64,000 bases of DNA from Comamonadaceae bacterium OTU4NAUVB1 (lineage in GTDB: Bacteria > Pseudomonadota > Gammaproteobacteria > Burkholderiales > Burkholderiaceae_C): the NCBI GenBank assembly GCA_024372625.1, contig CP099607.1:248001-312000 (forward strand). Reading direction: 5' to 3'. The notes under the pieces were generated by a model that made no database searches, was not told the origin of the DNA, and worked only from the letters and a program-made list of their open reading frames with translations. Within the stretch, counting starts at the first letter, position 1; each line of letters starts with the position of its first letter. Made by a program: the position numbers and the translations under genes. Shown piece by piece: positions 4,278 to 31,059 of this stretch.

Positions 4278-4298
4278 CGCAGGCGCCCGCCGGCGCGC

Positions 4299-5214: not shown

Positions 5215-5227
5215 CGGGAAAATCCCG
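5215..5227. promoter_or_regulatory. Inverted repeat CGGGA-AAA-TCCCG, candidate operator
   Basis: A perfect 5-bp inverted repeat around AAA lies four bases before the ATG of the monooxygenase gene, in the 141-bp divergent region with the LuxR-type gene. It occupies the place where a ribosome binding site would be expected, and none is visible. It could be a repressor or LuxR site, or a sign that the true start is further downstream (GTG at 5382). Confidence 0.35.
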
Positions 5228-5231
5228 TCCC

Positions 5232-7313: not shown

Positions 7314-7317
7314 ATCC

Positions 7318-10653: not shown

Positions 10654-11568
10654 ATGCGCCAGGAATTTCTGGAAGACCCCGACGTGCGCGAATTCACCGA
10701 ATGGCTCGCGCGCCATCTGGGCCGGCTGGACGTGCAGCTCAACATGAGCGTGTCGCCCTACATGCCCGAGGGCATGAACGCCGTCACGACCTTCGACCGC
10801 CTCGTTCCGGACCATTACCGGTGGCGCTTCACGGGCATGGCGACGGGCGACTGGCGCGAGACGATCCTGCGCATGCAGGAACTCGCGCACGGCCTGCGCA
10901 CCGCCGTGGCCCGGCACGACGCGCCGGCCACCCACGCCGCGTGCAACGCCATCGTCGAGTGGGGCGCCGACCGCAACAGCCGCGTGGGTGCCAGCGCCTA
11001 CTTCGTGGGACTGGGCGACCGGCTGCCGACCTACCTGGCGACGACCGCGGAGGCCCTCCGCCTCGCCCGGCCGGACCCGTCGGGCAACTTCCGCGGCATT
11101 CCGCGCATGAATTCGACACTCTGCAAGGTCCACGCGCTCTACGCCGCCGACGGCCTGCCGATCTACGAGTCGCGCGTGGCGGCCTCCATCGGCACGCTGG
11201 TCGAGCTGTGGCGCCGGCAGACCGACCGGGCGATGCTGCCGCTGCCGCCGATGCTGCGCTTTCCCGCCGTCGGCAACCAGCTGCAGCGGCGCGTGCGGCG
11301 GGCCTTCCCGGACGCGGTCGATCCGGGCGTGCTCAGCTACAACATCGGCTCGGAGATCGCGACCGCCGGGCGCTGGGCCAGCGCCGCCGTGCGCCTGGGA
11401 CTGCTGATGCAGGAGACCCTGCGCCGCGGCCCGCGCCACCTCTTCGTGGCCTGGCCGCTGCGCCTCACCTCGCGCACGACCGAGGCACGCATGGCGGCGT
11501 TCATCGGCGCGCTGTTCGTCGCGGGCTACGACCCGCGCTCCATGGTCGCGGAAGCGCACCAGCACTGA
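10654..11568 (+). CDS. Conserved-looking protein of unknown function
   Basis: 304 residues, not recognised. It looks soluble: no signal peptide and no clear membrane helix. It is rich in Arg and Ala, with a mid-protein block MNSTLCKVHALYAADGLP followed by IYESRVAASIG (about residues 152-180), and YNIGSEIATAGRW near 230. GAAAGG about eight bases before the ATG serves as ribosome binding site. Codon use is like a genuine gene of this genome. It stands alone between two intergenic regions of about 600 and 460 bases that are richer in A+T than the rest, which fits an acquired gene. No function is proposed. Confidence 0.7.
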   Translation: MRQEFLEDPDVREFTEWLARHLGRLDVQLNMSVSPYMPEGMNAVTTFDRLVPDHYRWRFTGMATGDWRETILRMQELAHGLRTAVARHDAPATHAACNAIVEWGADRNSRVGASAYFVGLGDRLPTYLATTAEALRLARPDPSGNFRGIPRMNSTLCKVHALYAADGLPIYESRVAASIGTLVELWRRQTDRAMLPLPPMLRFPAVGNQLQRRVRRAFPDAVDPGVLSYNIGSEIATAGRWASAAVRLGLLMQETLRRGPRHLFVAWPLRLTSRTTEARMAAFIGALFVAGYDPRSMVAEAHQH

Positions 11569-12027
11569 TCGAGGGGCCCCCTCGTGGCGTGGCGGAGGCC
11601 CTTGGGGGCCGTCGCGAGGCGCTCCGACCGCCGGCGACGCGCCCTTTTTGCAACGCAGTTGCAATTTTCCCCAAAAATTTCCGTCCGGTTCCACCGTCCG
11701 ATTCGAGGCCCGAAAGACGCGCCTGCTCGCGACGAACGGTGAATCGGGAATTCGCATCGCGGGAAGGCGCGCGCGTGATTCGCGAATTGGGGGGTTTTGA
11801 TGCTGGTTTTCCCTGCCTAGGATCGCAACGCTTAAATCGATGGTTTTAGAAGCCTCTTTTTTCGCGCTCGATGATCCGGCGCCCGATTTCGCCTTTCGCG
11901 GGACCCCAGGGAAAACCATTGCCAATTCAACGAATACTTTCTGAGTATTGATTCAAGAAATTACAAAAGCTACATTTTTGGTTCCATATCGATTCAACCC
12001 CTTGCTACCAATTGCCGAAGGACCATC
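11569..12027. other. AT-richer intergenic region upstream of the pilin gene
   Basis: 459 bases without a supported gene. Just after the orphan gene lies a GC-rich inverted repeat (CGAGGGG/CCCCTCG, 11570-11584) with no T-tract. At 11648-11664 two TTGCAA hexamers flank CGCAG. The last 150 bases are the most AT-rich of the whole Tad region and contain the pilin promoter candidate. Confidence 0.5.
11933..11976 (+). promoter_or_regulatory. Candidate sigma-70 promoter with overlapping inverted repeat, pilin gene
   Basis: TTGATT (11948-11953) and TACATT (11971-11976) are 17 bases apart, 51 bases before the pilin ATG; each matches the consensus at four of six positions. An inverted repeat AATACT-N5-AGTATT (11933-11949) overlaps the -35 box and could bind a regulator. 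The hexamer AGTATT occurs again at 24955-24960, just upstream of the Crp/Fnr gene. Confidence 0.45.
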
Positions 12028-12213
12028 ATGAAAGCCGCATTTCTTAAATTCATCCGTGACGAACGTGGCGCCACCGCCATCGAATACGGGATCATCGCCG
12101 GCCTGATCGCCGTGGTTTTGATTGCCGCATTCGGACCGGCAGCCAACTCGATTTCGTCGCGGCTGACAACCGCGTTCGCCAACATCGCCACTCATCTCGC
12201 GACCATTCTTTGA
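12028..12213 (+). CDS. flp: Flp-type (type IVb) pilin
   Basis: 61 residues, the usual size of Flp pilins. A short basic leader (MKAAFLKFIRDERG) is followed by the class signature ATAIEYGIIAGLIAVVLI: the prepilin peptidase should cut after the glycine at residue 14 and the mature protein has Glu5 and Tyr6. It is the major subunit of the Tad adhesive pilus. AAGGA lies seven bases before the ATG. It has its own promoter candidate, fitting the need for much more pilin than assembly protein. Confidence 0.96.
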   Translation: MKAAFLKFIRDERGATAIEYGIIAGLIAVVLIAAFGPAANSISSRLTTAFANIATHLATIL

Positions 12214-12258
12214 GGCCGACGGTTCCAATCGGCGTCTGGATCTGTAATCGGTAAGCGT

Positions 12259-12780
12259 GTGCTGTTCGTCGCACTCGTGCTCTGGCTGACCGGAATCGTC
12301 CTCACCGACTTCGTCAAGCGCCGTGTTCCCAACCGCTGGCTGGTCGTCGGCGCCGGACTCGCCTTCGTCGCGCTGACCTGGAACGCCTCACCACTGGCCG
12401 TCACCTGGCAGGACGCACTGACCGGAGGCGGCGTCGCCTTCGTCGTCCTGCTGGGGTTCTACGCGCTGGGAATGATGGGCGCGGGCGACGTCAAGTTCGC
12501 GGCGGTGCTGGGCCTGTGGCTGGGCGGGCCGCCGCTGGTGCCGATCGCCGTCGGCGCCGGTCTATTGGCCGGCGGGCATGCGCTCGTCTGCCTCGCGCGC
12601 CGGCACGGACCCGCGCTGCTTCGACGCCAGCGGCAAGCGGCCGGAGCGATGCCCGCCAGTGCACCGATCGCGGGGCACGCATCGGCGAACGCGCCCGCGC
12701 TGGACGGGGCCATCCCCTATGCCGGCTACCTCGCGCTGATGGCGCTGCTGTGGATCGCGCTGAGCCTGGCGCCGCCTTGA
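12259..12780 (+). CDS. tadV: Prepilin peptidase TadV/CpaA (A24 family)
   Basis: 173 residues, polytopic, without the N-terminal methylase domain of PilD, as in TadV. Both aspartates of A24 peptidases are visible: LTDFVKRRVPNRW (about residue 14) and GAGDVKFAAVLG (about residue 75). It processes the Flp pilin and the TadE/F pseudopilins at the inner membrane. The start is a GTG with only a weak upstream purine stretch; no in-frame ATG is closer. Confidence 0.93.
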   Translation: MLFVALVLWLTGIVLTDFVKRRVPNRWLVVGAGLAFVALTWNASPLAVTWQDALTGGGVAFVVLLGFYALGMMGAGDVKFAAVLGLWLGGPPLVPIAVGAGLLAGGHALVCLARRHGPALLRRQRQAAGAMPASAPIAGHASANAPALDGAIPYAGYLALMALLWIALSLAPP

Positions 12781-12847
12781 GGTCGTTCTTGCACCCCCCT
12801 GCCCTTCACCCGCGCTCCTTGCTCACCCGGTTCCCGTCCGCCCCGCC

Positions 12848-13873
12848 ATGTTCCGCCTGACCCAGTTCCTCGCCGCCGCGCTGCTGCTTCTCGCCGTGCT
12901 GCTGGGGGTGTACGCGTGGCAGCTGGGTGGGCGGTCGGCGGCCACCCCGCCGGACGCCGCCCTCGCGGCGCCGGCCGCGCCCGTGGCGGCCACCTTCCCG
13001 GTCGTGGTCACACGCCGCCGGGTGGCCGCGGGCGAGGCGCTGACCGCCGACGCGGTGGCGGTGGTGCGCCTGCCCATCGATCCGCCCGGGGTCCTGCGCG
13101 AGACGGCCGCCGCCATCGGCCGGGTGCCGACCACGGAACTCGCCAGCGGCGCCCTGGTGATGGAGGGCGGCCTCGCCGCCGGTTTCGCGCTGCGTCTGGC
13201 CGAGGGCGAGCGCGCCGTGGCGATCCGGGCCGACGAGGTGCTGGGCGTCGCCAACCGGGTGCAGCCGGGCGATTTCGTCGACGTGTTCCTGATGCTCAAG
13301 ACCGACGGCCGCGAGGTGGCGCGCAGCCAGGCGCGCCTGCTGCTGTCGCGCCAGCGCGTGCTCGCCTACGGCGGCGCGTCGGTCGACGGCACGCCGGCGA
13401 CGGAAGGCGGCGCCCCCGGCGCGCCCGCCGCGAACCGCCCGCTGGAGGCAGCGCGCACGGCGGTGCTGGCGGTGCCGGTGGAGGACGTCGCGCGCCTCGC
13501 CCTGGGTGAGGCGAACGGCCGGCTGCTGCTGGCCCTGCGCCATCCCGGCGACACCGCGCGGCCCGACGCGTCGCTGTTCGCGACCCTGCCGGCGGCGCTG
13601 CGCCCGGTCGCCGGCGCGCCGTCCGGCGGCACGCTGCGGCCCATCGACCGGGCGCAGGCCGGCGTCGCGATGGCCGATCTGGCCGAGGGCGGCGGCGCGC
13701 CGTCGGCCCTGGCCGCGTTGCTTCCGCCGCCGCTCGCCGTCGCCGTGGGTTCACCGGGCGGCGCCACGGCGATGGGGGTCCGGCCGCGCGCGACGGGCGG
13801 CGCGGCCCCGGCGCGCGCGGGCATCGAGATCGAGTCGATCCGCGGCGACCGGCGCGAGACCGTCAGCTACTGA
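12848..13873 (+). CDS. cpaB: Flp pilus assembly protein RcpC/CpaB
   Basis: 341 residues: an N-terminal membrane anchor (residues 5-24), then a SAF domain (VVVTRRRVAAGEALTADAV, about 55-120), then the RcpC-type domain with QPGDFVDVFLMLK and VLAVPVEDVARLALGEANG. It acts in the periplasm with the secretin. The C-terminal 80 residues are Gly/Ala/Pro-rich and vary in the family. Gap to the secretin gene is 74 bases with a short CCCACG repeat and no promoter seen. Confidence 0.93.
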   Translation: MFRLTQFLAAALLLLAVLLGVYAWQLGGRSAATPPDAALAAPAAPVAATFPVVVTRRRVAAGEALTADAVAVVRLPIDPPGVLRETAAAIGRVPTTELASGALVMEGGLAAGFALRLAEGERAVAIRADEVLGVANRVQPGDFVDVFLMLKTDGREVARSQARLLLSRQRVLAYGGASVDGTPATEGGAPGAPAANRPLEAARTAVLAVPVEDVARLALGEANGRLLLALRHPGDTARPDASLFATLPAALRPVAGAPSGGTLRPIDRAQAGVAMADLAEGGGAPSALAALLPPPLAVAVGSPGGATAMGVRPRATGGAAPARAGIEIESIRGDRRETVSY

Positions 13874-13947
13874 GGCCGCCGGCCCACCACGCCCACGCCC
13901 ACGCCCACCCCCATCTCCACCCCCCGTTTCCCATCACCCGACGCACC

Positions 13948-15282
13948 ATGCCACCTCTCCTTCCCGCCCGCCTCGTCGCCGTGCCGGCCCGCGAGCGCCA
14001 TCGCGCACGGCCCGCCAGCGCCGTGCGTGCCGTGCGCGCGGGATGCGCGACGCTCGCGCTGCTGGCCGCCGGCGGCACCGCCGCCGTCGCCGCGACGGAC
14101 GCGCGCGAGTTCACGCTCGTGACGGGCACCCAGCGCGAGCTGCTGATCGACCGCGCCATCGAGCGGGTGGCGGTCGCCGACGAGGCGGTCGCCAGCGTGC
14201 TGGTGACGCGGCGCGGCCGGGGCGTCGACGGCGCCCGGCTGATCGTCACGGGCAAGGCGCCCGGGCGCACCACGCTCATGGTGTGGCGGCGCGACAGCGA
14301 CACCGCCACCACCTACGAGGTCGCGGTGCGGCGCCGCCAGACCGCGCTGGACGGCGCCTCGCCCAGCATGGAGGCGCACGCGCAGCGGCTGCAGGACGCG
14401 CGCTCCGCCACCGGCGCGGACGCCCCGACGGCCGACCGCTCGGTCGTCGACGTGCGCAGCCAGACCGTGCAGGTCGAAGTGCGGATCGTCGAGTTCAGCC
14501 GCAACGTGTTGAAGGAAGCCGGCATCAGCCTGTCGAGCTACGGCCCCAACAGCCGGGGCTTCAGCTTCCTGAACACCTCCGCGTCGTCGCTCAGCCAGGC
14601 GTTCAACCTGGTGCTGGGCTTCGGCAACGCGAACCAGGGGCGCGGCCTGGACCTGACGCTGCGCCTGCTGCAGGGCAACGGCCTGGCGCGGGTGCTGGCC
14701 GAGCCGACGCTGGTGGCCACGTCGGGCCAGAGCGCGAGCTTCCTGTCCGGCGGCGAGCTGCCCGTGCCCGTGCCCCAGGCCCTGGGCACCACCACCATCC
14801 AGTACAAGCCCTTCGGCATCGGCCTGACGGTGACGCCGACCGTGCTGTCCAACGAGCGCATCGCGCTCAAGGTGGCGCCGGAGGCGAGCGACCTCGACTA
14901 CACCAACGCGCTGAGCATCAACGGCACGCCCGTGCCCTCCATCACCACGCGCCGCGCCGACACGAGCGTCGAGCTGGGCGACGGCGAGAGCTTCATCATC
15001 GGCGGGCTGGTCAGCCGCACCACGCTGTCCAACGCCAGCAAGGTGCCGCTGCTGGGCGACCTGCCGGTGATCGGCCTGCTGTTCCGCCAGGGCAGCTACC
15101 GGATGACCGAAAAGGAACTCGTGATCATGGTCACCCCCCACCTGGTGCGGCCGATCGCGCGCGGCACCGACCTCTCGGCGCGCCTGCCCGGCGGCGCCGA
15201 ACAGCGCGAGGGCGCCGGCTGGAACCGCATCCTGCTGGGCGACATCACCGCGCGCGACGCCCTGCCGGGGTTCTCGAGATGA
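13948..15282 (+). CDS. cpaC: Tad secretin RcpA/CpaC
   Basis: 444 residues. The signal peptide ends near residue 50 (GTAAVAAT). A BON-like/pilus-assembly N-domain follows, with the beta pattern RAIERVAVADEAVASVLV and GKAPGRTTLMVWRR. Then comes the secretin core: VQVEVRIVEFSRNVLKEAGI, LARVLAEPTLVATSGQ, ASFLSGGELPVPVPQ, and near the C-terminus IIGGLVSRTTLSNASKVP, LGDLPVIGLLFRQ and ELVIMVTPHLV. It forms the outer-membrane ring through which the Flp pilus leaves. Its stop overlaps the ATG of the next gene. Confidence 0.95.
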   Translation: MPPLLPARLVAVPARERHRARPASAVRAVRAGCATLALLAAGGTAAVAATDAREFTLVTGTQRELLIDRAIERVAVADEAVASVLVTRRGRGVDGARLIVTGKAPGRTTLMVWRRDSDTATTYEVAVRRRQTALDGASPSMEAHAQRLQDARSATGADAPTADRSVVDVRSQTVQVEVRIVEFSRNVLKEAGISLSSYGPNSRGFSFLNTSASSLSQAFNLVLGFGNANQGRGLDLTLRLLQGNGLARVLAEPTLVATSGQSASFLSGGELPVPVPQALGTTTIQYKPFGIGLTVTPTVLSNERIALKVAPEASDLDYTNALSINGTPVPSITTRRADTSVELGDGESFIIGGLVSRTTLSNASKVPLLGDLPVIGLLFRQGSYRMTEKELVIMVTPHLVRPIARGTDLSARLPGGAEQREGAGWNRILLGDITARDALPGFSR

Positions 15283-16652
15283 AACCGTTCCTGTCCTCCC
15301 CGGCGTTCCCGCCGGCCGCCGCGCCCGCCGCGCCCGCCATCCCCGCCATCCCCGCCGGTGGCGAGACCTACCTGTGCGCCACCGACGACGCCGCGACGCT
15401 CGACTGGCTGGCCCACGGCCTGCACCGGCGCGGCCGGGTGGTGCCGGTGGCCTGCGGCTTGCGGGCCATCGACGAGGCCGTCGCCACCCTGCGCCCGCAG
15501 GCGGTGTTCCTGGATTTCTCCGGCCCGCGCGCGGCCACCGCCGCCGAGCTGCACCACCAGTTGCGCAAGGCCCGTCCCGACCTGCCCGTGCTGGGCACCG
15601 GCGCCTCGACCGAGCCCGCCGCGCTGCTGGCGGCGCTGCGCGCGGGCGTCGCCGACTTCGTCGACACGGCCGGCTCGCTGCACGACCTCAACGCGACGCT
15701 GGTCGCCCTGCTGCTGCGCCAGCGCGGCGCGACGTCGACCGGCGCGCCGGCCCCGGCGCGCCAGAGCGGCGCGCGCGGGCACGGGGTGGTGCTGCTGGGC
15801 GCGCGTCCCGGCCTGGGCGTGACGACCCTGGCGACCCACCTCGCGCTGCTGCTGCAGGACGCGGTCGGGCGCGTGGCCGCCACCCCCGCGGGCGGTCCGC
15901 CCGCGCGCGGCGTCGCGCTGCTCGACCTGGGCCTGCCCGCGCGCGACGGCCTGCTCTACCTCGACACCGCCAGCGACTTCAGCTTCTTCGACGGCGTGAG
16001 CCAGCTGCGCCGCCTCGACCAGACGCTGGCGCAGACCGCGCTGGCGCACCACGCCGACGGCCTGGCCGTGCTGCCGCTGTCGTGCGATCCGCTCCAGTGG
16101 CGCGCGACCGCCTCGGAGGACGACGCCGCCCTGCTGCAGCGCCTGCCCGACTTCTTCGACCACCAGGTCGCCGACCTCGGCGGCTGCACCCGGCCGGCCT
16201 TCATGGCCCAGTGCGTGCGCGAGGCCGACCGGGCCTGGATCGTGTGCGACCAGAGCATCGGCGGGCTGGTCTCCACGGCCCAGCTGCTGCGCGAGCTGGA
16301 GGGCCACGGCATCGGGCGCGAACGCATCGGGCTGGTGGTCAACCTGTTCGATCCGGCGCTGGCCGTCACGGCGCGCGACATGGCCCAGCGCCTGGAGCTG
16401 CCGCTCGCGCACGTGCTGCCGCAGCGCCGCGCCGCGCTGCTCGCGGCCGGGGCGCGCGGCCAGATGCTCGCGCGCGTGGCGCGCCACGATCCCTACGTGA
16501 ACGCCGTGCAGGCCATGGTGCGGGAGCTGCGCGGCGAGGCCGGCGCGACGGCGGCCGACGGCGCGTCGCGCCTGCCGGGACGCACGCCCTCGTCGTGGGC
16601 CGCGCTGGTGGCGCCCCTGTCGCGGCGCGGCCGCCGGGCCCGGGAACGCTGA
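15279..16652 (+). CDS. cpaE: Tad localisation ATPase TadZ/CpaE
   Basis: 457 residues starting at the ATG overlapping the secretin stop. The first 30 residues are Ala/Pro-rich. A receiver-like alpha/beta domain follows (about 32-145), with VFLDFSGPRAA and GVADFVDTAGSLHDL. The MinD/ParA-like ATPase domain starts near residue 168. Its P-loop reads GARPGLGVTTLATH: the lysine of GKT is a valine, a feature of several TadZ proteins that bind ATP weakly or dimerise without hydrolysis. TadZ places the Tad machine at the pole. Confidence 0.92.
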   Translation: MKPFLSSPAFPPAAAPAAPAIPAIPAGGETYLCATDDAATLDWLAHGLHRRGRVVPVACGLRAIDEAVATLRPQAVFLDFSGPRAATAAELHHQLRKARPDLPVLGTGASTEPAALLAALRAGVADFVDTAGSLHDLNATLVALLLRQRGATSTGAPAPARQSGARGHGVVLLGARPGLGVTTLATHLALLLQDAVGRVAATPAGGPPARGVALLDLGLPARDGLLYLDTASDFSFFDGVSQLRRLDQTLAQTALAHHADGLAVLPLSCDPLQWRATASEDDAALLQRLPDFFDHQVADLGGCTRPAFMAQCVREADRAWIVCDQSIGGLVSTAQLLRELEGHGIGRERIGLVVNLFDPALAVTARDMAQRLELPLAHVLPQRRAALLAAGARGQMLARVARHDPYVNAVQAMVRELRGEAGATAADGASRLPGRTPSSWAALVAPLSRRGRRARER

Positions 16653-22202: not shown

Positions 22203-24202
22203 GCGCGATGACCCGTCGGCGCGCCGCCACGACAGCGCCCGCGCGGTGCGCCGGCTCGGTGCTGGTGCAGGCCGCGCTGGCGCTGAGCATGCTGGTGGGC
22301 GTGCTGGTGGGAACCGAGCTGGGCTGGCTGTTCTACCTCAAGCGCGAGATGCAGAAGGCGGTCGACCTCGCCGCGATGGCCGGCGCGCAGGCCCTGGCAA
22401 CCACCGATTGCGCCGGGGCGCGCGCCGCCGCCGTGGCCAACGGCGCGCTCAACCTGCCCGCCGGCCTGCCGCTCACCACGGCCGACGTCGAGTGCGGCCG
22501 CTGGGACCCCGCGACCTACGCCGCGCCCACCTACTACGGGACGCCCGCCACCGGCCAGGCGCCCAACGCGGTGAAGGTCGTCATGCGCCGCACGCCGTCG
22601 CTGCTGATGCCCAACCTGCCCGGCGCCCAGGCGCGCACCATCGCGGTCCAGGCGCTCGCGACCCGGCGCCAGCCGCGCGCCGCGCTGACCATCCGCAGCA
22701 CCCTCGCGAGCGTCGACGCCGCGCAGGCGCCGCTGCTCAACGCGGTGCTCGGCGGCATGCTCGGGGGTTCGCTGGCGCTCGACACGGTGGCCTACAACGG
22801 GCTGGCCACCGGGCGGCTGAAGCTGCTGGGCTACCTCGACCAGCTCGCCCTGTCGATGGGCGTGGCGGCCGGCGACTACGACCGGGTGCTCGACACGGCG
22901 GTGCCGGTGGGCACGCTGCTGCAGGGCGCCGTCACGGCCCTGACGCGCCAGGGCGACACCGCCCAGGCCACCGTCACCGCGCTCGACGCCTTCCGCCTCG
23001 CGGCCGGCGCGCCGGCCCCGCAGCCGCTGGTCAAGCTCGGCAGCCTGATCAAGGTGCAGAGCGGCACCCCGGCGGCGGCCCTGATGGTGGACCTGCAGGT
23101 CCTGCAGCTCGCCGAGGCGCTGGTGCAGCTGGCCAACGGGCGCAACGGGCTGGTCGCCAGCGTGCCGCTGGGCGTGCCGGGGCTGCTGAACCTGACGGCC
23201 AGCGCGCGGGTCATCGAGCCGCCCCAGCTCTCGGCCATCGGCGATCCGGCATTCGCCAAGCTCGATCCGACCGGGCCCAACGCCATCGCCGTGCGCACCG
23301 CCCAGGTCCGCACGCTGATCACGGTCGAGCTGCCGCTGCTCACGGGCATCACCGCGCTCACCAACGCCCTGTCGAGCGCGCTCGCGCCGCTGCTCTCGAC
23401 GCTCAACAGCGTGCTCAAGCTCGACCTCGGCAACGTGCTGGCCTGCGCCGTCGTCTGCACCAACCAGTGGGTGGTGGACGCGGCCTTCCTCGCGCCGGTC
23501 GCGCGCATCGACATCAACCTCGACGCCGGTGGCGGCACCTCGCGCGTGACCAACTTCGCCTGCGCCAATCCCGCGGCGACCTCGCTCACGGCGCGCACCA
23601 CCACCACCGCCGCCGCCCTGCGCATCGGCACCTTCGGCGGGACGGTCGCGCAGGCGAAGGCGCAGGTGTTCGGCGCCGCCACCGTGCCCGTGGTCGCGCC
23701 ACTGCCCCTGCTCGACGTGGGCGCGGCACGATGCACCAAGCTGCTGGCCGGCGTGCTGAAGACCTGCGAGGCGCGCGTGCCGTTTTACGGCGGTGGCCTG
23801 GGCCTCAAGGCGGACCTCGCCTTCGGCGCCACCACCGCCGACCAGACCTTCGCCAACCCGCCCGACGTGCGCGCCGACCCCGCCTGGCTGGCGATCTCGA
23901 CGGTGAGCGTCGCCGATGCGATCGGCCAGACGCTGCGCATTCCCGCCACCCTGCTGCAACCCATCGCGCCGACCGCGCCCTCGACCACCGGCGCGAACAG
24001 CTCGTCCACCATGCTGCAGAACGTGGCGAGCGCCCTCTCCGGCGTCACCACGGCGCTCGCCACGGTGGTCTCGAACGTGCTCTCGCCCCTGGTCGACCCG
24101 CTGATCGCCACGGTGGTGCGCGACCTCCTGGGGCTCGACCTCGCCAAGACCGAGGTCGGCGGCCGGCTGGGCTGCGCCGACGGCGAGGAACTGGTCTTCT
24201 AG
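22199..24202 (+). CDS. tadG: TadG-like pilus assembly protein
   Basis: 667 residues from a GTG overlapping the previous stop (GTGA); an ATG at 22208 is the alternative. The N-terminus has a TadE-like membrane segment (LVQAALALSMLVGVLVGTELG, split by charges) and the segment KREMQKAVDLAAMAGAQAL of TadG proteins. No von Willebrand A domain motif was seen; the long C-terminal part is Ala/Leu/Val/Thr-rich and probably periplasmic beta structure. It is the last gene of the tad operon. Its stop TAG shares CTAG with the convergent regulator's stop. Confidence 0.85.
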   Translation: MSAMTRRRAATTAPARCAGSVLVQAALALSMLVGVLVGTELGWLFYLKREMQKAVDLAAMAGAQALATTDCAGARAAAVANGALNLPAGLPLTTADVECGRWDPATYAAPTYYGTPATGQAPNAVKVVMRRTPSLLMPNLPGAQARTIAVQALATRRQPRAALTIRSTLASVDAAQAPLLNAVLGGMLGGSLALDTVAYNGLATGRLKLLGYLDQLALSMGVAAGDYDRVLDTAVPVGTLLQGAVTALTRQGDTAQATVTALDAFRLAAGAPAPQPLVKLGSLIKVQSGTPAAALMVDLQVLQLAEALVQLANGRNGLVASVPLGVPGLLNLTASARVIEPPQLSAIGDPAFAKLDPTGPNAIAVRTAQVRTLITVELPLLTGITALTNALSSALAPLLSTLNSVLKLDLGNVLACAVVCTNQWVVDAAFLAPVARIDINLDAGGGTSRVTNFACANPAATSLTARTTTTAAALRIGTFGGTVAQAKAQVFGAATVPVVAPLPLLDVGAARCTKLLAGVLKTCEARVPFYGGGLGLKADLAFGATTADQTFANPPDVRADPAWLAISTVSVADAIGQTLRIPATLLQPIAPTAPSTTGANSSSTMLQNVASALSGVTTALATVVSNVLSPLVDPLIATVVRDLLGLDLAKTEVGGRLGCADGEELVF

Positions 24203-24927
24203 TCGGTCGGGCGGACGGGCGCCGGCAACAGGCGCTGGTACTCGGCCCGCACCACGGTGTAGCACTCGCACACCCGCCGCTCCAGGCCGGGGCGGTCGAT
24301 GACGTCGATGCGCCCGCGCCGGTAGCTGATGACGCCGGCGCCCTGCAGCTTGAGCGCCGCCTCGGTCACGCTCTCGCGACGCACCCCCAGCATGTTGGCG
24401 ATCATCTCCTGGGTCATCTCCAGGCGGTCGGCGTCGATGCGGTCGAGCATCAGCAGCAGCCAGCGGCACAGCTGCTGGTCGAGCGAATGGTGGCGGTTGC
24501 ACACCGCCGTCTGCGAGACCTGCGTCAGCAGCGCCTGCGTGTAGCGCAGCAGGTGGCGCAGCACGCGGTCGCCCCGGTCGACGCTGGCCTGGAGCACGCG
24601 CGCCGGCAGGCGCAGCAGCTGGCCCGCGCCCTGCACCACCGCGCGGTTGAGCGTGGAGCCGCCGCCCAGCAGCACCGGCAGGCCGATGAAGCCCTCGCGC
24701 CCCACCACGGCCACCTCGGCCGAGGCGCCGTCGTCCATCAGGTAGATCAGCGACACCACGGCGGTCGTCGGGAAGTAGGCGTAGGTGCGCCGCTCGTTGG
24801 GCTCGCAGATCACGCAGCCCATCGGCAGGTCGACGAGGTCGAGGTGCGGCAGCCAGCGATCGACGTCCTCGGGCCCCAGCGTCGCGAGCAACTGATTGGC
24901 GCGGTGGTCCAGCAGGGTGGCGGTCAT
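24199..24927 (-). CDS. Crp/Fnr-family transcriptional regulator
   Basis: 242 residues: a cyclic-nucleotide-type beta barrel (about 25-140, with YAYFPTTAVVSLIYLMDDG and AEVAVVGREGFIGLPVLLGG) and a C-terminal winged helix (MTQEMIANMLGVRRESVTEA, about 175-194, and GVISYRRGRIDVID). The N-terminal four-cysteine cluster of FNR is absent; the cysteines (CVICEPNERR) do not match an FeS site, so the signal is unknown. It converges on the tad operon, and may regulate it. Confidence 0.92.
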   Translation of the reverse strand: MTATLLDHRANQLLATLGPEDVDRWLPHLDLVDLPMGCVICEPNERRTYAYFPTTAVVSLIYLMDDGASAEVAVVGREGFIGLPVLLGGGSTLNRAVVQGAGQLLRLPARVLQASVDRGDRVLRHLLRYTQALLTQVSQTAVCNRHHSLDQQLCRWLLLMLDRIDADRLEMTQEMIANMLGVRRESVTEAALKLQGAGVISYRRGRIDVIDRPGLERRVCECYTVVRAEYQRLLPAPVRPTD

Positions 24928-25253
24928 GGCGCGCGGCGAGGGTCGGTCATGTTGAGTATTTTCGACCTCATCGATTCAATCCGTCGTCCGGCGAAAGACC
25001 TACACGAACCGTCAAATCGTCCTCCAAATGCCACATAAAAGTAACAATATGCGTTTCGGTGAGTGTTTGCTACGGCGCGAACGCCCGCAAAATCAAGGCC
25101 GACTTTCGTTCACCAGAAAACCGAACGATCCATCGGCTTGTAGCCTGAAAGAATTCAACTCCAATGTTTATCCCACGGCACCCGGGTGAATGCACCCCCG
25201 CGACGCAGCCCCTCGGTGCCGCCACCATCCCTTCCCCGACCCGAACGACCGCC
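24928..25253. other. Divergent intergenic region, no gene
   Basis: 326 bases between the Crp/Fnr gene and the ABM-like gene. Part of it is AT-rich (around 25030-25060). The hexamer AGTATT at 24955-24960 repeats half of the inverted repeat seen at the pilin promoter. Promoters must lie here for both genes, but no convincing -35/-10 pair was found by eye. Confidence 0.5.
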
Positions 25254-25598
25254 ATGGACAAGATCTTTCGCGCATGGACCTTCTGGATCCGCACGGCGCT
25301 GCGCGAGGAATGCCAACACTACCTGGACACCGTCAAGCTCAAGGAGATGAACGCGGCACCGGGCAACGAACGCGCCGCCGCGCTGTTCCGCGACCTGGGC
25401 GACGGCACCACCGAGGTGGCGGTGGTGTCGGTCTGGGAATCGATGGACGCGATCCGGGGCTACGTGGGCACCGAGCCCCTGCAGCCGTCGATCGACGCGG
25501 AGGACCGCAAGAAGCTGTTCGACCGGGAGCCGATCGTGCGCCACTACGCGATGAGCGACCAGAGCGCGCTCATGCTGATGCCCAAGGAATGGCGCTGA
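25254..25598 (+). CDS. Small dimeric alpha/beta-barrel protein (ABM-like)
   Basis: 114 residues from ATG 25254 (MDKIFRAWTFWIR); the frame is open 30 codons further up to an ATG at 25164, but that extension is Pro/Thr-rich. The pattern FRDLGDGTTEVAVVSVWESMDAI followed by RGYVGTE and PIVRHYAM is that of the antibiotic-biosynthesis-monooxygenase fold, a ferredoxin-like barrel used in small oxygenases and stress proteins. No catalytic residues can be assigned. It converges on the cobN-like gene with a 30-base gap. Confidence 0.7.
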   Translation: MDKIFRAWTFWIRTALREECQHYLDTVKLKEMNAAPGNERAAALFRDLGDGTTEVAVVSVWESMDAIRGYVGTEPLQPSIDAEDRKKLFDREPIVRHYAMSDQSALMLMPKEWR

Positions 25599-25628: not shown

Positions 25629-28600
25629 TCAGGCCGGCCGCGGCGGCGGCGCCCGCCGCGTCTGCCGCCAGGCGCCGGCGAGCAGCACCAGCGCGGCGAT
25701 GAACAGCGCCGCCAGCCGGTCGACGACCGACGCCGGGACGTCCGTCGCCGACGGCGGCACCCGCTCGGGCTGCGGCAGCAACCGCAGTCCTTCCACCCGC
25801 GTCGACGCCGGCGCGGCGGGCGGCACGGCGGCCGGGGCCGCGCGGGTCGGCGGCGCCGCCCGCGCCACTTCCAGGGGACGCGGCGCCGTGCGGGGCGTCG
25901 CCGGCCGCGCGGCGTCGGCGCGGTCCGTGGCCGGGGCGGCCGGGGCGTCGGCCTCGCGCGCGGCGAAGCGACGCACCAGCGGGTTCAGGTCGCGCTGTCC
26001 GGTCGCGCCGACCGCCGCCTCGTAGGCCCGGGCCAACTCGCGCCGGGTCTCGGCGTCGGGCCGCCAGTAGTCCAGCCGCACGGCGTCGAGCATGCGCTCC
26101 AGCGTCTGCGCGAAGGCGGCGCGGTTGTCGCCTTCCAGCCATTCGCGCGTGCCCAGCCGGTAGCGGTCGCGCACGTAGACGTCGTGCAGCGACTGCCAGT
26201 GGTCCTGGCGCACCGACCGCGGCGCCGTCACCTGCCAGCCCCACAGGAACTGCGCCGTCTTGAGCACCTGCAGCGTGCCGCTGTAGCCCTCGGCCTTCTG
26301 CGCCTCGATCCACTGCGGGTGCAGGTAGCGCGTCTGCATCTCCTTGGCGATCGCGTCGTCGGCGCCCTCGGTGCGCACCTCCGCGCCGTCGCGCAGGTTC
26401 TGCACGTAGAGCGCGGGATCGCGCCCGGTGAGCTGGCGCACGGCCAGGGCCAGCCCGCCGAGGTACTGGAACGGGTCGTCGCTGGTCAGCATGCCGTAGG
26501 TGTTGGAGGTGCGCGAGAGCAGCGCCGCGTCGACCTGCGCCAGGTTGGCGGCATGGGCGCCGTGGCGCGCCAAGCCTTCCAGGCCGTCGCCCTGGGCGTG
26601 GCCCATCCGGTCGACGTAGAGGCCGGCCATGCGCGCATCGCCGCCGCCCCGGCCCTGCGCGGCCCAGGTGTCGCTGGCGGTGGTGGCGTCGGCCAGGCCG
26701 CTGCCGTAGCTGCCGGCCTCGTTGGAGAACACGCGCACGGTCGACCAGCGCTGCGCCTGCGCGGGCGTCGCGCCCTCGGCGCGCAGGCGTTGCGCGAGCG
26801 CCTCGCTGTGGCGGGCGACGAAGTTGTCGGTGCCCGCCTCGCGCAGGTCCGCCACCTGCCGCACCCCGGCGTCGAGCCAGCGCATGACGCCGGGGAACTG
26901 GTCGCGGTAGGACCCCGTGACGCTGACCAGCACGTCCAGGCGCGGCCGCTTGAGTTCGGCCGCGGGGATGGTCTCCAGGCCGACCACGCGGCCGGCCTCG
27001 TCCCAGCGCGGCTTCACCCCCATGGCGTAGAGCGCCTGGCTCTCCATCACGCCCTGGTGGCGCAGGGTCTCGCCGGCCCACAGCGTGAAGGCGATCTTCT
27101 CGGGCGGGCGGCCGCCGTGGGCCTTCGCGTGCGCCGCGATCCAGGCGTCCATGGCCGCGACGGCGATGCCCCAGGCTTCCCGGGTGGGCACGCGGCCGGG
27201 GTCGAACCCGTAGAGGTTGCGCCCGGTGGGCAGGCTGTCGGGGTTGCGCACCGGGTCGCCACCATAGCTCGACGCGAGGTGGCGGCCGTCGAGCGCGGCG
27301 AGGAAGCCCTCGATCTCCTGGTTGCCCGCGAGCGTCGCGTCCAGACGCTGTGCCCGCTCGGCCAGCGCCAGCAGCACCGCGCTGTCCAGCGGCTTGCCCT
27401 GCGCCCGGTTGGGCACCGCGCTGGCGCCCTGCGGCGGCGGCCGCGCGGCGTCGACCGCGCGCAGGTCGAGCGTGCTGGCCGCCCGCGCGTCGACCAGCGC
27501 CGCCTCCAGCCAGCGCGCCGGGCGCGACAGGGCGACGTTCTTCGCGTCCAGCAGGAACACCTCGTCGATGTCCTCGCCCAGCGCCTCGATCAGCGGCTTC
27601 TTCAGGATCTGCAGGATCGTGCCGTGGCGCCGCCGCGCGTCGGGCACCTCGCCGAAGGCCGCCAGCCCGAGCGGCTGCGCCGTCATCGCCAGCTCGTCGA
27701 GGTGCGGGTGCAGCCGCTCCATGAAGCCGGCGAAGTCGGCCAGGATCTGCTCGCGGGTCCATTTCAGGTCGCGGTGGTACTGGTGCTCGACGAACTGGGC
27801 CGCGAGGCGCGCCTCCAGCTCGACCTTCACCGGCCCGGGCGACACGTTCTCCCAGTCGTGCATCAACTCGTGCATCTCCTGCACGCGGGGCCGGAAGCCC
27901 GCCGGCGCGAACATGGGCGTCGAATGGCTCACCAGCACGGCACGGCCGCGCCGCTTGGCGGTCACGGCCTCGCCGAGGTTGTCCATGATGTAGGGGTAGA
28001 CGTTGGGCAGGTCGCCCAGCGCCAGCAGGGGGTCGTCGTCCACCGCCAGCGCGCGCTCCTTGCCCGGCGCCCATTCGAGCGTGCCGTGCGTGCCCACGTG
28101 CACCACCGCCCCGGCGCCGAACCGCGTGCGCAGCCACAGGTAGGTGGCCAGGTAGCCGTGACTCAGCGGCGTCGCCGAGCGGTGGTAGATCGTCCGGGCC
28201 TTCTGCGCCGGATCGTCGCTGGGCTCCTGGCGCGGCGGCTGCGGCAGCACCACGACGTGGCCGTCCGCGCCGCCCATGCGCACGCGCGGGATGACGAAGG
28301 CGCGCTCGCCGCCGACGTCGCGCAGCAGGCTCGAGCGTTCGGGCGGGCCCCAGTGCGCCTCGATGCGCGCCTGCGTGGCCGCCGGCAGCGCGCGGAACCA
28401 CGCCAGGTAGCGCGCGAGCGGCAGCGCCTCGGCCAGATCGCGCTCGAGCAGCGGGCCCAGGGTCTCGGGCCGGTGGAACGCCGCCATCGTCGCCTGCACC
28501 TGCGGGGTGATGCGCTCGGCCTCCGGGGCGTCGGTGCGGTAGCCGGCGTCGCGCAGGGCGGCGAGCATGTTGTGCAGGCTCCTGGGCACGTTCAGGAACG

Positions 28601-29879
28601 AGGCGCCGAAGTTGCCCTCGCCCTGCGGGTAGTTGTAGACCAGCATCGCCACCCGGCGCTCGGCCGGCGGCGTGGCGCGCAGGCGCGTCAGGGCGGCGGC
28701 CTTGTCGGCGACCGCATCGACCTGCGCCGCGATCGGCGCCAGCGCGCCGCTCGCCGCGTCGCGCGCGGTGATCAGCATCGGATCGACCATGCCGGCGAGT
28801 TCGCTGGGCGTGTAGTAGTAGGCGACGTCGGCCTGCGCCAGCCCGGACGTGCTCCGCGCCCATTGCGCGGCGTCCATGGCCAGGGCCGGCATGGTCTGGA
28901 GCACCGGCACGCCGATGCGCTCGAGCTCGGCCTTGCGCTCGGTCGGGTTGAAGACCAGCGCGGCGTTGACGATCAGGTCGGCCACGCGGCGCGGGGCGGC
29001 GTCCGGGCCGGGGCCGGCGGCGTGCGTCATGGCGAAGAACAGGTCCTTGCGCTGGCGCGGACCGTAGAACGCGTAGGCCCGCAGGCCGCGCCGCTCGAGG
29101 GCGCCCACGAGCGCGTCGACCCAGCCGGTGTCGTCGCTCGTCAGGACGGCGTTGTTGATGGCGATCGCCACCGTCGGCGCGCCGGCCGCCGGGCCCGGCA
29201 GGCGATCCAGCGCCCCGGGATCGGACTCGATGCCGGGCCAGCCCGGGTGGTAGAGACCGGCCGCGGGCAGGCGCTCGGGCGCCGGCAGGCCGTCCAGGCG
29301 CCCGACCTGGCGCAGGGCCGCCATCGACGCCGCGAGGTTGGCGGCGCGGGCGTTGCGCCAGTAGCCGCGCAGGCGCTGCGCCCAGGCCGCATCGACGCCG
29401 CGCTCGGTGGCCAGCGGGGCGGCGGCGACGGCTTCGTCGCGCGCCACGGCGGCGGCCTCGCCGACCAGCACGTAGGGCACGCCGCTGCGCTCGATCGCCG
29501 TGCCGAAGCGCGCCGCCGCCGCCTCGCCGACGCCCGCGTGCGGGGCGTCGATCACCAGCAGCGCGGCGCCCGCGACGGCATCGGCCAGGGCGTCGGGCGT
29601 GTCGCGCTCGGCCGACAGCGTGCGCAGCGGCACGCCGGCCGCGCGCGCCGCCGACTGCAGCTTCGCCAGCCGCGCGGGCGAGACGAGGTAGGTGGCCAGC
29701 AGGACGATGCGTCCGGCATCCCCGGCCGCGCCGTCCACCGGCTCCGCGGCGCGCGCCGGGCGGCCCGCGCCGGCCAGGGCGAGCGCCAAAGCCACGGCGA
29801 GCGCCAGGGCGAGCATCGGCAGCCGGGTCGCGACCCAGGCCGCCAGGGCGCCCGCGCCCGGTCGCGCGCCGCGCCTCAC
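25629..29879 (-). CDS. cobN: CobN-like chelatase with signal peptide and C-terminal membrane anchor
   Basis: 1416 residues, in the CobN/ChlH/BchH large-subunit family. Core motifs include MLVYNYPQGEGNFGASFLN, the HVGTHGTLEWAPGKE block (about 583-597), GDLPNVYPYIMDNLGEA and TGSYRDQFPGVMRWLD. Unlike cytoplasmic CobN, it starts with a hydrophobic export signal (about residues 15-42, ending GRPARAAEP) and ends with a Pro/Ala-rich linker and one membrane helix (about 1385-1405, LAALFIAALVLLAGAW). It therefore should be periplasmic and anchored. No CobS/CobT ATPase is nearby. It is the third gene after an ExbB-like and an ExbD-like gene, with a GTGA overlap, behind a cobalamin riboswitch. The closest known logic is the HmuS/HmuU/HmuV set of Bacteroidetes haem uptake. 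Substrate here is inferred to be a corrinoid or other tetrapyrrole. Confidence 0.9.
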   Translation of the reverse strand: MRRGARPGAGALAAWVATRLPMLALALAVALALALAGAGRPARAAEPVDGAAGDAGRIVLLATYLVSPARLAKLQSAARAAGVPLRTLSAERDTPDALADAVAGAALLVIDAPHAGVGEAAAARFGTAIERSGVPYVLVGEAAAVARDEAVAAAPLATERGVDAAWAQRLRGYWRNARAANLAASMAALRQVGRLDGLPAPERLPAAGLYHPGWPGIESDPGALDRLPGPAAGAPTVAIAINNAVLTSDDTGWVDALVGALERRGLRAYAFYGPRQRKDLFFAMTHAAGPGPDAAPRRVADLIVNAALVFNPTERKAELERIGVPVLQTMPALAMDAAQWARSTSGLAQADVAYYYTPSELAGMVDPMLITARDAASGALAPIAAQVDAVADKAAALTRLRATPPAERRVAMLVYNYPQGEGNFGASFLNVPRSLHNMLAALRDAGYRTDAPEAERITPQVQATMAAFHRPETLGPLLERDLAEALPLARYLAWFRALPAATQARIEAHWGPPERSSLLRDVGGERAFVIPRVRMGGADGHVVVLPQPPRQEPSDDPAQKARTIYHRSATPLSHGYLATYLWLRTRFGAGAVVHVGTHGTLEWAPGKERALAVDDDPLLALGDLPNVYPYIMDNLGEAVTAKRRGRAVLVSHSTPMFAPAGFRPRVQEMHELMHDWENVSPGPVKVELEARLAAQFVEHQYHRDLKWTREQILADFAGFMERLHPHLDELAMTAQPLGLAAFGEVPDARRRHGTILQILKKPLIEALGEDIDEVFLLDAKNVALSRPARWLEAALVDARAASTLDLRAVDAARPPPQGASAVPNRAQGKPLDSAVLLALAERAQRLDATLAGNQEIEGFLAALDGRHLASSYGGDPVRNPDSLPTGRNLYGFDPGRVPTREAWGIAVAAMDAWIAAHAKAHGGRPPEKIAFTLWAGETLRHQGVMESQALYAMGVKPRWDEAGRVVGLETIPAAELKRPRLDVLVSVTGSYRDQFPGVMRWLDAGVRQVADLREAGTDNFVARHSEALAQRLRAEGATPAQAQRWSTVRVFSNEAGSYGSGLADATTASDTWAAQGRGGGDARMAGLYVDRMGHAQGDGLEGLARHGAHAANLAQVDAALLSRTSNTYGMLTSDDPFQYLGGLALAVRQLTGRDPALYVQNLRDGAEVRTEGADDAIAKEMQTRYLHPQWIEAQKAEGYSGTLQVLKTAQFLWGWQVTAPRSVRQDHWQSLHDVYVRDRYRLGTREWLEGDNRAAFAQTLERMLDAVRLDYWRPDAETRRELARAYEAAVGATGQRDLNPLVRRFAAREADAPAAPATDRADAARPATPRTAPRPLEVARAAPPTRAAPAAVPPAAPASTRVEGLRLLPQPERVPPSATDVPASVVDRLAALFIAALVLLAGAWRQTRRAPPPRPA

Positions 29880-30232
29880 GGCCCGACCGGCGTCGCGTCG
29901 GCCGGAACGTAGACCATCGTGCCGTCCTTCATGCGGTAGGCGGTGCCGGCCTTCTCGCCGTCGCCCTCGCCCGAGGCGCCGCTCGCCTTGAAGCGCGTCA
30001 CCTTGCGGCCCTCCTTGGTGAGGATCTCCATGTCGGGCCGGCCCTCGTTGCGGATGACGGTGACCTTGTCCTGGGCGAACGGGTTCATGGGGTTGTTGAT
30101 GACCGCGATCATCAGCATGCCGATCACCACCATGAAGACGTCGATCAGGTTGATGGTGGAGAGCACCGGATCGTCGTCCTCGGCGTCCAGGCCGTCGAGG
30201 ATGGAGAAACGCCGGCCCTGGCGCCCGCTCAC
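29876..30232 (-). CDS. DUF2149 protein, ExbD-like motor partner
   Basis: 118 residues from a GTG overlapping the stop of the ExbB-like gene. A short acidic N-terminus is followed by one membrane helix, INLIDVFMVVIGMLMIAV (about 27-44), whose Asp31 sits where ExbD, TolR and MotB carry the proton-binding aspartate. The rest is a small periplasmic domain ending in GTAYRMKDGTMVYVPAD. DUF2149 genes co-occur with ExbB-like and CobN-like genes. The motor role is inferred from the helix and the neighbours. Confidence 0.85.
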   Translation of the reverse strand: MSGRQGRRFSILDGLDAEDDDPVLSTINLIDVFMVVIGMLMIAVINNPMNPFAQDKVTVIRNEGRPDMEILTKEGRKVTRFKASGASGEGDGEKAGTAYRMKDGTMVYVPADATPVGP

Positions 30233-30702
30233 GACGCGCGCTCCCGGGCGTCGAGCACCATCACCAGCTCGTTCATCAGCCAGCGCCGGCGCACCGTGTA
30301 GACGACGAAGGTGATCGAGGCCGAGGCCAGCGCGACGATCACGCTGGCGAAGGCCGGCGCCAGGCTCTGCGCCACGCCCTGCGACTCGCCCGAGGCCACC
30401 GCGACCAGCGCGGGGCCCATCGGGATCATGGTGGCGATCAGCCCGAGCATGGGCGCCACGCGGCTGCACAGGCGCACGCCCTCCAGCGCCTTGAGCACGG
30501 CCAGCTCCATCTGCTCCTGGCCACGGTCGGCCAGCGTCCCGAGCAGCAGCGCGCGCGTCGGCTCGCGCCGCCGCTGCAGGTACTCGATGCCGAAGGCGCC
30601 CAGCCCGTAGACCGCGTAGAGGAAGGACAGCAGGACACCCAGGGTGACCGGCCACAGGAACAGGCGTGCCAGTTCGAACAGAACGGCTTCGAAAGCGAAC
30701 AT
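30229..30702 (-). CDS. MotA/TolQ/ExbB-family proton channel protein
   Basis: 157 residues with three membrane segments (about 10-32, 85-105 and 115-138). The family signature VAPMLGLIATMIPMGPALVAV is complete, followed by FASVIVALASASITFVVYTVRRR. It pairs with the DUF2149 protein as ExbB pairs with ExbD and should use the proton gradient. It is shorter than Escherichia coli ExbB (no long cytoplasmic tail). First gene of the riboswitch-led operon; no good Shine-Dalgarno is visible before its ATG, only TCATCATCTCC. Confidence 0.92.
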   Translation of the reverse strand: MFAFEAVLFELARLFLWPVTLGVLLSFLYAVYGLGAFGIEYLQRRREPTRALLLGTLADRGQEQMELAVLKALEGVRLCSRVAPMLGLIATMIPMGPALVAVASGESQGVAQSLAPAFASVIVALASASITFVVYTVRRRWLMNELVMVLDARERAS

Positions 30703-30733
30703 GGAGATGATGACCCGACGATGCGATGCCCGT

Positions 30734-30753
30734 CACCGGCCTCCCCGCCGGTG
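30734..30753 (-). promoter_or_regulatory. Short hairpin between aptamer and first gene
   Basis: CACCGGC (30734-30740) and GCCGGTG (30747-30753) form a 7-bp stem with a six-base loop, 31 bases before the first start codon of the operon. It may be part of the expression platform of the riboswitch. No T-tract follows, so it would act on translation or by Rho rather than as an intrinsic terminator. Confidence 0.45.
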
Positions 30754-30765
30754 CTTGGGTGTCAT

Positions 30766-30800
30766 GGCCGCCGCACCCGCGTGGCGCGGGCGCGGCGGCC
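30766..30800 (-). promoter_or_regulatory. Strong hairpin directly 3' of the riboswitch aptamer
   Basis: Nine base pairs (30766-30774 with 30792-30800), one A/C mismatch, then six more pairs around a TGG loop form a nearly perfect 15-bp stem. On the transcript it comes right after the B12 box. No U-run follows. An ATG just beyond it opens a 10-codon frame that ends in TGA, a possible leader peptide. Confidence 0.6.
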
Positions 30801-30805
30801 GCCTC

Positions 30806-31000
30806 GTTGGCCGGTATCCGGGCTGACAGCGCGGCCCCCGGCGGCCTTCCCGGACACCTGTTTCAGGGCGTCCAGTGGCTTGCGTCGCCGGGGGTGGCGC
30901 CCGGGGGCGCCGTCTGCTTGACCGTTGCGGGGGCAGCGCAGGCGGCGCCGGCGTTCCGCGAGGGAACACCGCCACTCCTGCTTCCCGTTGAACTGCGCCA
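30806..31000 (-). ncRNA. Cobalamin (AdoCbl-type) riboswitch
   Basis: Read on the minus strand, the leader has the conserved parts of the cobalamin riboswitch in order: AACGGGAAG (30981-30989), GCTGCCCCCGCAACGGT (30921-30937), GCCACTGG (30872-30879), GGGAAGG (30845-30851) and the B12 box AGCCCGGATACCGGCC (30809-30824). Lengths between them fit the family. It lies upstream of the ExbB-like, DUF2149 and CobN-like genes and should lower their expression when cobalamin is plentiful. The aptamer boundaries are approximate. Confidence 0.93.
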
Positions 31001-31032
31001 CGTGAACCGCGCCGCGAGCACCAACCCGGCCG

Positions 31033-31059
31033 ATTCTACAAAGACGTGATGAAAGTCAC
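31033..31059 (-). promoter_or_regulatory. Candidate promoter of the riboswitch operon
   Basis: On the minus strand TAGAAT (31033-31038) matches the -10 consensus at five of six positions and lies about 30 bases before the aptamer. GTGACT (31054-31059) is the best -35 match but the spacer is only 15 bases. Confidence 0.3.

Follow-up and report, generated by a model that had tools for sequence, protein, structure and literature searches.

The window analyzed here, a 64,000-nucleotide stretch of the genome of Comamonadaceae bacterium OTU4NAUVB1 (assembly GCA_024372625.1, contig CP099607.1, positions 248,001 to 312,000 of the forward strand), carries on its minus strand a cobalamin (vitamin B12) riboswitch followed by genes for an ExbB/MotA-like protein, a DUF2149 protein, and a CobN-like chelatase. 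A corrinoid-linked function of this trio and its closest relatives is well supported by the genes that accompany them. Our best explanation of what the trio does, which we put forward tentatively, is that it is a corrinoid-dedicated periplasmic machine, most likely one in which a proton motor drives the insertion of cobalt into metal-free or wrongly metallated corrinoids. We infer its location (from hydropathy), the coupling of motor to chelatase, the direction of the reaction, and the metal.

The operon and its gene context

The riboswitch match (RF00174) scored 40.2 bits, well over its gathering threshold, and agrees with the B12 riboswitch that an earlier note, made from the letters of the window, had placed before the trio; it extends 40 nt beyond the end of the interval described in that note. 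From there the gene order on the minus strand is ExbB/MotA-like, DUF2149, and CobN-like, with a gap of 89 nt between the riboswitch and the first gene. Both junctions, exbB/DUF2149 and DUF2149/CobN-like, are GTGA stop/start overlaps, and the translational coupling proposed earlier is right as anatomy. The features are listed below in window coordinates; residues are compared with those of HmuS, from the HmuS/HmuU/HmuV system of Bacteroidota (HmuS, PDB 9D26).

30792..31040, minus strand: cobalamin riboswitch aptamer (RF00174; cmscan 40.2 bits, gathering 31.5, E = 1.1e-6)
30229..30702, minus strand: ExbB/TolQ/MotA-like proton-channel protein, 157 amino acids, about three hydrophobic segments (PF01618, 27 bits, cut-off 22.9; hydropathy)
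30430..30432, minus strand: codon of ExbB Thr91 (T in 125 of 125 ExbB rows)
29876..30232, minus strand: DUF2149 protein (HmuV type), 118 amino acids, one predicted membrane helix and a small extracytoplasmic beta domain (PF09919, 90.4 bits; low-confidence model)
30140..30142, minus strand: codon for Asp31 of DUF2149, a candidate for the proton-carrying residue (D in all 151 rows)
25629..29879, minus strand: CobN-like chelatase, 1416 amino acids (PF02514, 936 bits; NF004644, 1308 bits, cut-off 1248)
29745..29879, minus strand: N-terminal signal-like stretch of the CobN-like chelatase, approximately residues 1-45 (hydropathy)
28086..28088, minus strand: codon of His598 of the CobN-like protein, equivalent of HmuS His-538 (alignment)
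26475..26477, minus strand: codon of Asp1135 of the CobN-like protein, at the place of HmuS His-1209 (alignment)
25671..25727, minus strand: hydrophobic C-terminal helix of the CobN-like chelatase, spanning approximately residues 1385-1403 (2.17 on the hydropathy scale at residue 1385)

The window's genome (98.8% complete) has one PF02514 gene and two B12 riboswitches. The second riboswitch precedes genes (by Pfam) for a TonB receptor, CbiA/CobB, CobU, a BtuF-type protein, BtuR, CbiB, CobQ, and the nucleotide-loop phosphoribosyltransferase, with BtuC-, BtuD-, and CobC-like ORFs interspersed; the salvage operon is split here, the trio being under its own riboswitch, and is whole in a same-genus relative (L201). 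CbiC, of corrin-ring synthesis, had no match in the genome. The earlier note had held that CobS/CobT elsewhere in the genome, acting with the CobN-like protein, would speak against its reading: CobT (PF06213) had no match, whereas CobS was not sought with its own model. ChlI/D-type subunits gave only weak generic matches, the best at 31.5 bits against a cut-off of 779. From this gene content it is most likely that the organism salvages corrinoids rather than makes B12, and that the CobN-like protein is unusable in a classical CobNST complex.

PF09919 was present in 18 of 274 genomes sampled from the class, 18 of 250 from the order, and 28 of 200 from the family, and the control Methanosarcina acetivorans also gave a match. 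DUF2149 proteins that are nearly identical occur in relatives named Variovorax and Polaromonas. From the three samples, 17 class, 17 order, and 31 family loci were fetched, and to these came 80 named loci among the matches listed in a collection scan; with the window included and five duplicates discarded, the set comprised 141 loci with flanks of 8-9 kb at most. The trio recurs: a CobN match was found in 126 loci (window included), and in 125 of them CobN and ExbB share a strand. In a FastTree tree of 112 near-full-length CobN-like proteins, the window's protein and one from the same genus group together within clade W (13 rows, 100% local support), which adjoins an 83-row clade, A, while a 12-row clade, B, lies apart. 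Long branches (L199, L149, L139/L140, and clade B) leave the deep order unsure, and the corrinoid link may have had a single origin or two. The 13 W loci counted below exclude the window; 12 were placed by the tree and one, L207, whose CobN ORF is shorter, by score. Group A consists of 111 loci, 82 placed by the tree and 29 by exclusion, with 16 of the 111 under 10 kb.

Salvage genes surround the W-type trio. BtuR is present in all 13 loci, CobU, CbiA, BtuF, BtuC, and BtuD in 12 each, BtuB-type receptors in 11, and CbiB in nine. The order in L202 is typical: riboswitch, TonB receptor, CobU, BtuF, BtuC, BtuD, CbiA, ExbB, DUF2149, CobN, second TonB receptor, BtuR, CbiB, CobC. Counting how often a B12 riboswitch lies near the three-gene set, as the earlier note had proposed, gave 11 of the 13 W loci by Rfam; in the others, L210 and L214, the contig stops ~4.4 kb upstream. 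(A guanidine-III riboswitch match in L203, at 13210-13276 on the minus strand, scored 39.1 bits against a gathering threshold of 36, but it lies inside a BtuF-like ORF, 12762-13703, and is probably due to chance.) Among the 12 B loci, BtuR was found in 10 and CbiA and BtuB-type receptors in eight each, with a riboswitch directly upstream of the trio or its receptor gene in four (L034, L035, L037, and L038). The riboswitches of L153 and L154 lie on the opposite strand, past the trio's 3' end, and exert no direct control over it; the upstream end of the gene cluster in L153-L155 is outside the fetched DNA.

Overall, at least two corrin genes accompany the trio in 12/13 W and 9/12 B loci but in none of the 111 A loci (0/82 of those placed by the tree). 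Fisher tests against the 82, uncorrected for kinship, gave 2e-14 for W and 2e-10 for B; this context in two clades supports the corrinoid link suggested in the earlier note. CobU, CbiA, BtuR, CbiB, and CobQ are absent from all 111 group-A loci, where a TonB receptor is found in 81 and a HmuY-like gene in 16; the one HmuY-like query had no match in the 13 W loci. No riboswitch was seen in group A, where a motif script was run on all 111 loci and Rfam on 12 of them; the script's best hits had nine or more mismatches, versus 1-4 in true riboswitches and 10 or more in 25 shuffles. Four genomes have one W-type and one other copy of the trio, with a riboswitch only beside the W-type copy (Rfam); the other copy belongs to clade A by the tree in three and has split ORFs in the fourth (G675). 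A search for a Zur box (consensus GTTATANNATAAC) in the loci without a riboswitch gave no signal above shuffles.

Two genes adjoin the 3' end of the window's operon, one for a Crp-family regulator (24199-24927, minus strand) and one for a weakly matched ABM-domain protein that is under its cut-off (25164-25598, plus strand). No link to B12 was seen for either.

The CobN-like protein and its ExbB-like and DUF2149 partners

The CobN-like protein consists of a hydrophobic signal-like N-terminus, a class I chelatase body, a Pro-rich linker, a C-terminal hydrophobic helix, and a basic tail. Both the signal-like N-terminus and the helix are found in 12/13 clade-W, 11/12 clade-B, and 78/87 other proteins. 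Judged from hydropathy only, these termini suggest that the protein is periplasmic and membrane-anchored, in line with the export signal, helix, and location proposed in the earlier note. The chelatase body belongs with CobN and Mg chelatase (PF02514), and its active-site motif, SDDPFQYLGG, follows the SDDxFQYxGG pattern of Mycobacterium tuberculosis CobN (SDDYFQYHGG). The place of His598 is His in every row (13/13 W, 12/12 B, and 83/83 A). The HmuS signature LSLDHxxEFMGG is absent: in all 13 W rows, window included, His-1209 and Glu-1212 are replaced by Asp and Gln. The segment from Glu-577 to Ser-1014 has 269-334 residues in W (Met at most 2.4%) versus 437 in HmuS, and by this segment length W lacks the Met-rich insertion of HmuS domain IV. 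An HmuS-type His-1209 (DHPFEYLGG) does occur in nine of the 83 clade-A rows (L028, L056, L061, L084, L144, and others), which are candidates for a haem branch in Pseudomonadota.

The ExbB-like protein has a conserved GLxxT..PMGP motif that includes Thr91. The DUF2149 model, of low confidence (mean pLDDT 64), has a helix at residues 22-45 followed by five strands, and Asp31 falls within this single predicted helix, as the earlier note had described; Asn28 is likewise identical in all 151 rows (133, window included, plus the 18 of alignment A1, which are partly repeats of the 133 and all match PF09919). We take Asp31 to occupy the position of the ExbD/MotB aspartate. A PF01618 protein beside a partner with an invariant Asp in a single helix shares features with an ExbB/ExbD-type motor, and the invariance of Asp31 suggests a proton motor coupled to the chelatase. 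Because Pfam shows no match of DUF2149 to ExbD, that it works like ExbD is argued from the single helix, the invariant Asp, and the PF01618 neighbor. Against the sequences of solved structures, the DUF2149 profile gave only chance matches and ExbB gave none.

Pairs of ExbB and DUF2149 genes were also seen in other settings. In L086 (Cupriavidus sp. U2, 2646-9190), a locus with no CobN match, the pair has an HlyD-type adaptor and an RND pump upstream and a ChaN-type haem-binding protein downstream, and may serve other metal or tetrapyrrole systems; L099 has similar gene sizes (from ORF sizes only). Histidine kinase genes lie near the pairs of L115, L200, and L206, loci that likewise lack CobN, and Sel1-repeat proteins are encoded near those of L115 and L206. 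In L097 (Catenovulum maritimum), tandem CobN-like genes (8368-12567 and 12709-16264) lie behind one ExbB-DUF2149 pair.

Proposed cobalt insertion and the alternatives

In the mechanism that we propose, the riboswitch would permit expression of the trio when B12 is scarce, and the CobN-like subunit would be exported and anchored by its C-terminal helix through the Pro-rich linker. Corrinoid delivered by a TonB-dependent receptor would be bound by this subunit, and proton flow through ExbB/DUF2149 (Asp31 and Thr91) would pull on the chelatase through the same helix and linker, opening and deprotonating the ring; cobalt would then most likely be inserted into the metal-free (or wrongly metallated) ring. 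BtuFCD would import the product, and CbiA, BtuR, CobQ, CbiB, and others would complete it in the cytoplasm. The ring work is assigned to proton flow because the periplasm is without ATP and the genome is without a CobT match. Insertion is favored over removal because the trio would be made at low B12, because CbiA is found beside it in W and B, and because of the CobG clusters in B.

CbiC was found in four of 26 genomes: G669 of clade W and G236, G121, and G089 of clade B. The G236 cluster begins with a riboswitch, CobN, ExbB, DUF2149, BluB, BtuR, CobB, CobA, CbiD, an ABC-2 transporter pair, and CobG (323 bits, cut-off 234.8), continues with CbiC/CobH, CobI, CobJ, CbiE/T, and CobM, and ends with a TonB receptor, BtuF-, BtuC-, and BtuD-type genes, CobU, and a phosphoribosyltransferase. 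Both CobG and BluB typify the aerobic B12 route, in which cobalt enters late. G121 and G089 hold genes matching this cluster, and the CbiD-ABC-CobG order is common to all three; the ABC-2 type transporter pair between CbiD and CobG (L034 1789-3758, L037, and L032) is a candidate exporter of a corrin intermediate. In the B genomes all PF02514 stretches lie within one ORF (12/12), leaving the CobN of the trio as the only one. CobT was found in three of the 26 genomes, over its cut-off in G143 (80.5) and G089 (52.9) and below it in G140 (19.4); G236 and G121 had no match. The fused ChlI/D-type model has a strict cut-off, passed by 1/14 controls and by no genome of the 26, and the best matches in G236, G121, and G089 were 31, 38, and 27 bits. 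With no CobT and weak ChlI/D matches, the trio is therefore the only class I chelatase candidate seen in G236 and G121 that could serve the late cobalt step (the genome-wide searches did not extend to CbiX/CbiK or CobS, and CbiX was sought with one query in the fetched clusters), although these genomes share a genus code and the evidence thus amounts to about two lineages. It is conceivable, if doubtful, that in G236, G121, and G089 the trio supplies the cobaltochelatase for de novo synthesis: the CobG pathway's metal-free ring would be exported, perhaps by the ABC-2 transporter, receive cobalt in the periplasm at the expense of the proton gradient, and return through BtuFCD, with ExbB/DUF2149 replacing CobST and the window's version salvaging metal-free corrinoids.

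The trio might instead, in the same place and on the same class of substrate, remove metal (wrong metals or cobalt), in the way that HmuS acts on haem, or exchange it. HmuS shares this architecture and has been reported to be a de-chelatase, hmu operons contain MotA/ExbB- and DUF2149-type partners, hmuU and hmuV (PMC10434189), as does the trio (PF01618 and PF09919), and HmuS and CobN were not cleanly separated by fold comparison. However, the second axial His-1209, Glu-1212, and the Met-rich insertion of HmuS are missing here, a cobalt remover made at low B12 would make little sense, and the B clusters with CobG need an inserter; we therefore consider removal unlikely. Of the corrinoid roles listed in the earlier note, salvage is supported by the gene context, whereas metal removal has become less likely.

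Several observations weigh against proton-driven cobalt insertion. Metal-free corrinoids occur in nature, but that they are a food source is our assumption. The nearest characterized system, HmuS, removes metal, and because heterologously expressed HmuS reportedly does so with NADH, the motor may not be needed for catalysis. Similarity to the sequences of solved structures is near equal (CobN 351-373 bits, HmuS 343), and although the first Foldseek match was CobN 7c6o, the query TM-score was slightly higher for HmuS (0.64) than for CobN (0.61). Asp at the His-1209 place is also found in 74/83 A rows and is thus, alone, no marker of corrinoids. Corrin genes are missing near the trio in B loci L030 and L031, and 15 group-A loci, at least three of which are on short contigs, have DUF2149 (with ExbB in 14) but gave no CobN match in the DNA fetched. 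No ExbD family was among the six Pfam families listed for DUF2149 at E 1, and a fold search with its low-confidence model found nothing at E 0.001. Four W genomes (G638, G689, G697, and G596) have strong though sub-cut-off ChlI/D-type matches of 296-461 bits; these lie within ~13 kb of another, non-W PF02514 gene and are probably Mg chelatase. Finally, G669 has its own CbiX-like/CbiD/CbiG-like cluster; the trio is therefore not needed for de novo insertion there, and the role in W must be salvage.

A rather improbable alternative is that ExbB/DUF2149 energize corrinoid uptake across the outer membrane in the service of TonB, the CobN-like protein being a neighbor or a corrinoid-binding relay without chelatase activity. 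HmuU/HmuV were earlier read as ExbB/ExbD for TonB (Mesle 2023, PMC10100974), and both the BtuB-type receptors of the W loci and the 15 group-A loci just mentioned fit this alternative. It sits poorly with the shared strand of CobN and ExbB in 125/126 loci, the overlaps joining the three genes, the invariant His at the His598 place, and the presence of DUF2149 in M. acetivorans, an archaeon without an outer membrane. Still less probable is a de-chelatase for haem or another metalloporphyrin, HmuS proper, under a B12 riboswitch by chance: the HmuY-like neighbors (16/111 loci) and His-1209 types (9/83 rows) that point to one are in group A, whereas W loci have corrin genes, gave no HmuY-like match, and lack the HmuS signature residues. 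That the protein is an ordinary cytoplasmic CobN working with CobS/CobT or ChlI/D, as its database name says and its passing of NF004644 ("CobN") would allow, is scarcely credible given the missing CobT, the weak ChlI/D-type match, and the signal-like N-terminus and C-terminal helix, and the earlier warning that a cytoplasmic cobaltochelatase label would mislead is supported.

Comparison with known systems

The closest likeness is to HmuS/HmuU/HmuV, which also combines an exported CobN-like protein anchored in the membrane with partners of the ExbB-like and DUF2149 types; HmuS and the window's protein have the HxGTHG motif in common. The parallel drawn in the earlier note is right as architecture but stops short of the His-1209/Glu-1212 pair; here, too, a B12 riboswitch and salvage genes are found in place of a haem operon. 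Even the HmuS-type role is not simple, as a Bacteroides fragilis btuS1 btuS2 double mutant still releases iron from haem (Rocha 2018, PMC6460266). BtuS was described as a CobN-related third type (Rodionov 2003, as cited by Rocha 2018), and the cobalamin riboswitch before the hmu-like operon of B. fragilis, with the tie of such operons to cobalamin, is already in print (Mesle 2023, PMC10100974). The trio shares the B12 riboswitch of the B. fragilis operon; these systems, likened to it by description only, are from Bacteroidota, and the accessible text states no mechanism for them. BtuS of Methanosarcina barkeri, a CobN-like protein in an archaeon for which the full operon is missing according to its authors (PMC10846266), is likewise known here by description only. 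In Pseudomonas aeruginosa, the PA1921-PA1925 operon encodes a TonB receptor, a CobN-like protein, and an ExbD-like protein; it is, however, induced by zinc shortage and has a Zur site (PMC4542158). The Zur consensus used here gave no signal above shuffles in the present loci.

CobNST, the aerobic cobaltochelatase, has the same class I chelatase fold and SDDxFQYxGG motif; it spends ATP, possibly for corrin distortion and proton stripping (PMC7689651), through an AAA+ ATPase, in contrast to the signal-like export, missing CobT match, and proton-motor-type partners seen here. ExbB/ExbD, TolQ/TolR, and MotA/MotB also combine a PF01618 channel protein with a one-helix partner that has an invariant Asp, although the partner here is DUF2149 and the trio is without a TonB gene. 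Those class I chelatases for which metal insertion is known (CobNST and Mg chelatase) use an AAA+ ATPase, and a proton-driven extracytoplasmic one, if real, would be a new energy coupling; it would also explain the role of the uncharacterized ExbB-like/DUF2149 pair of hmu-type operons and place one step of B12 salvage, or of its synthesis, in the periplasm. Annotations of cobNST are not exclusive to aerobic pathways and are found in genomes without corrin genes (Shelton 2018). "CobN" annotations overstate B12 synthesis: in the window's genome a gene passes the database model of that name, although CbiC had no match there. The accessible parts of the open-licence literature searched contained no proposal that ExbB/DUF2149 powers a chelatase or replaces CobST. 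The BtuS name and prediction, the exported HmuS family, the Zur-linked PA1921-1925, and the riboswitch-led hmu-like operons of Bacteroides are already in print; what is new here is the operon evidence, the active-site contrast, and the apparent replacement of CobST.

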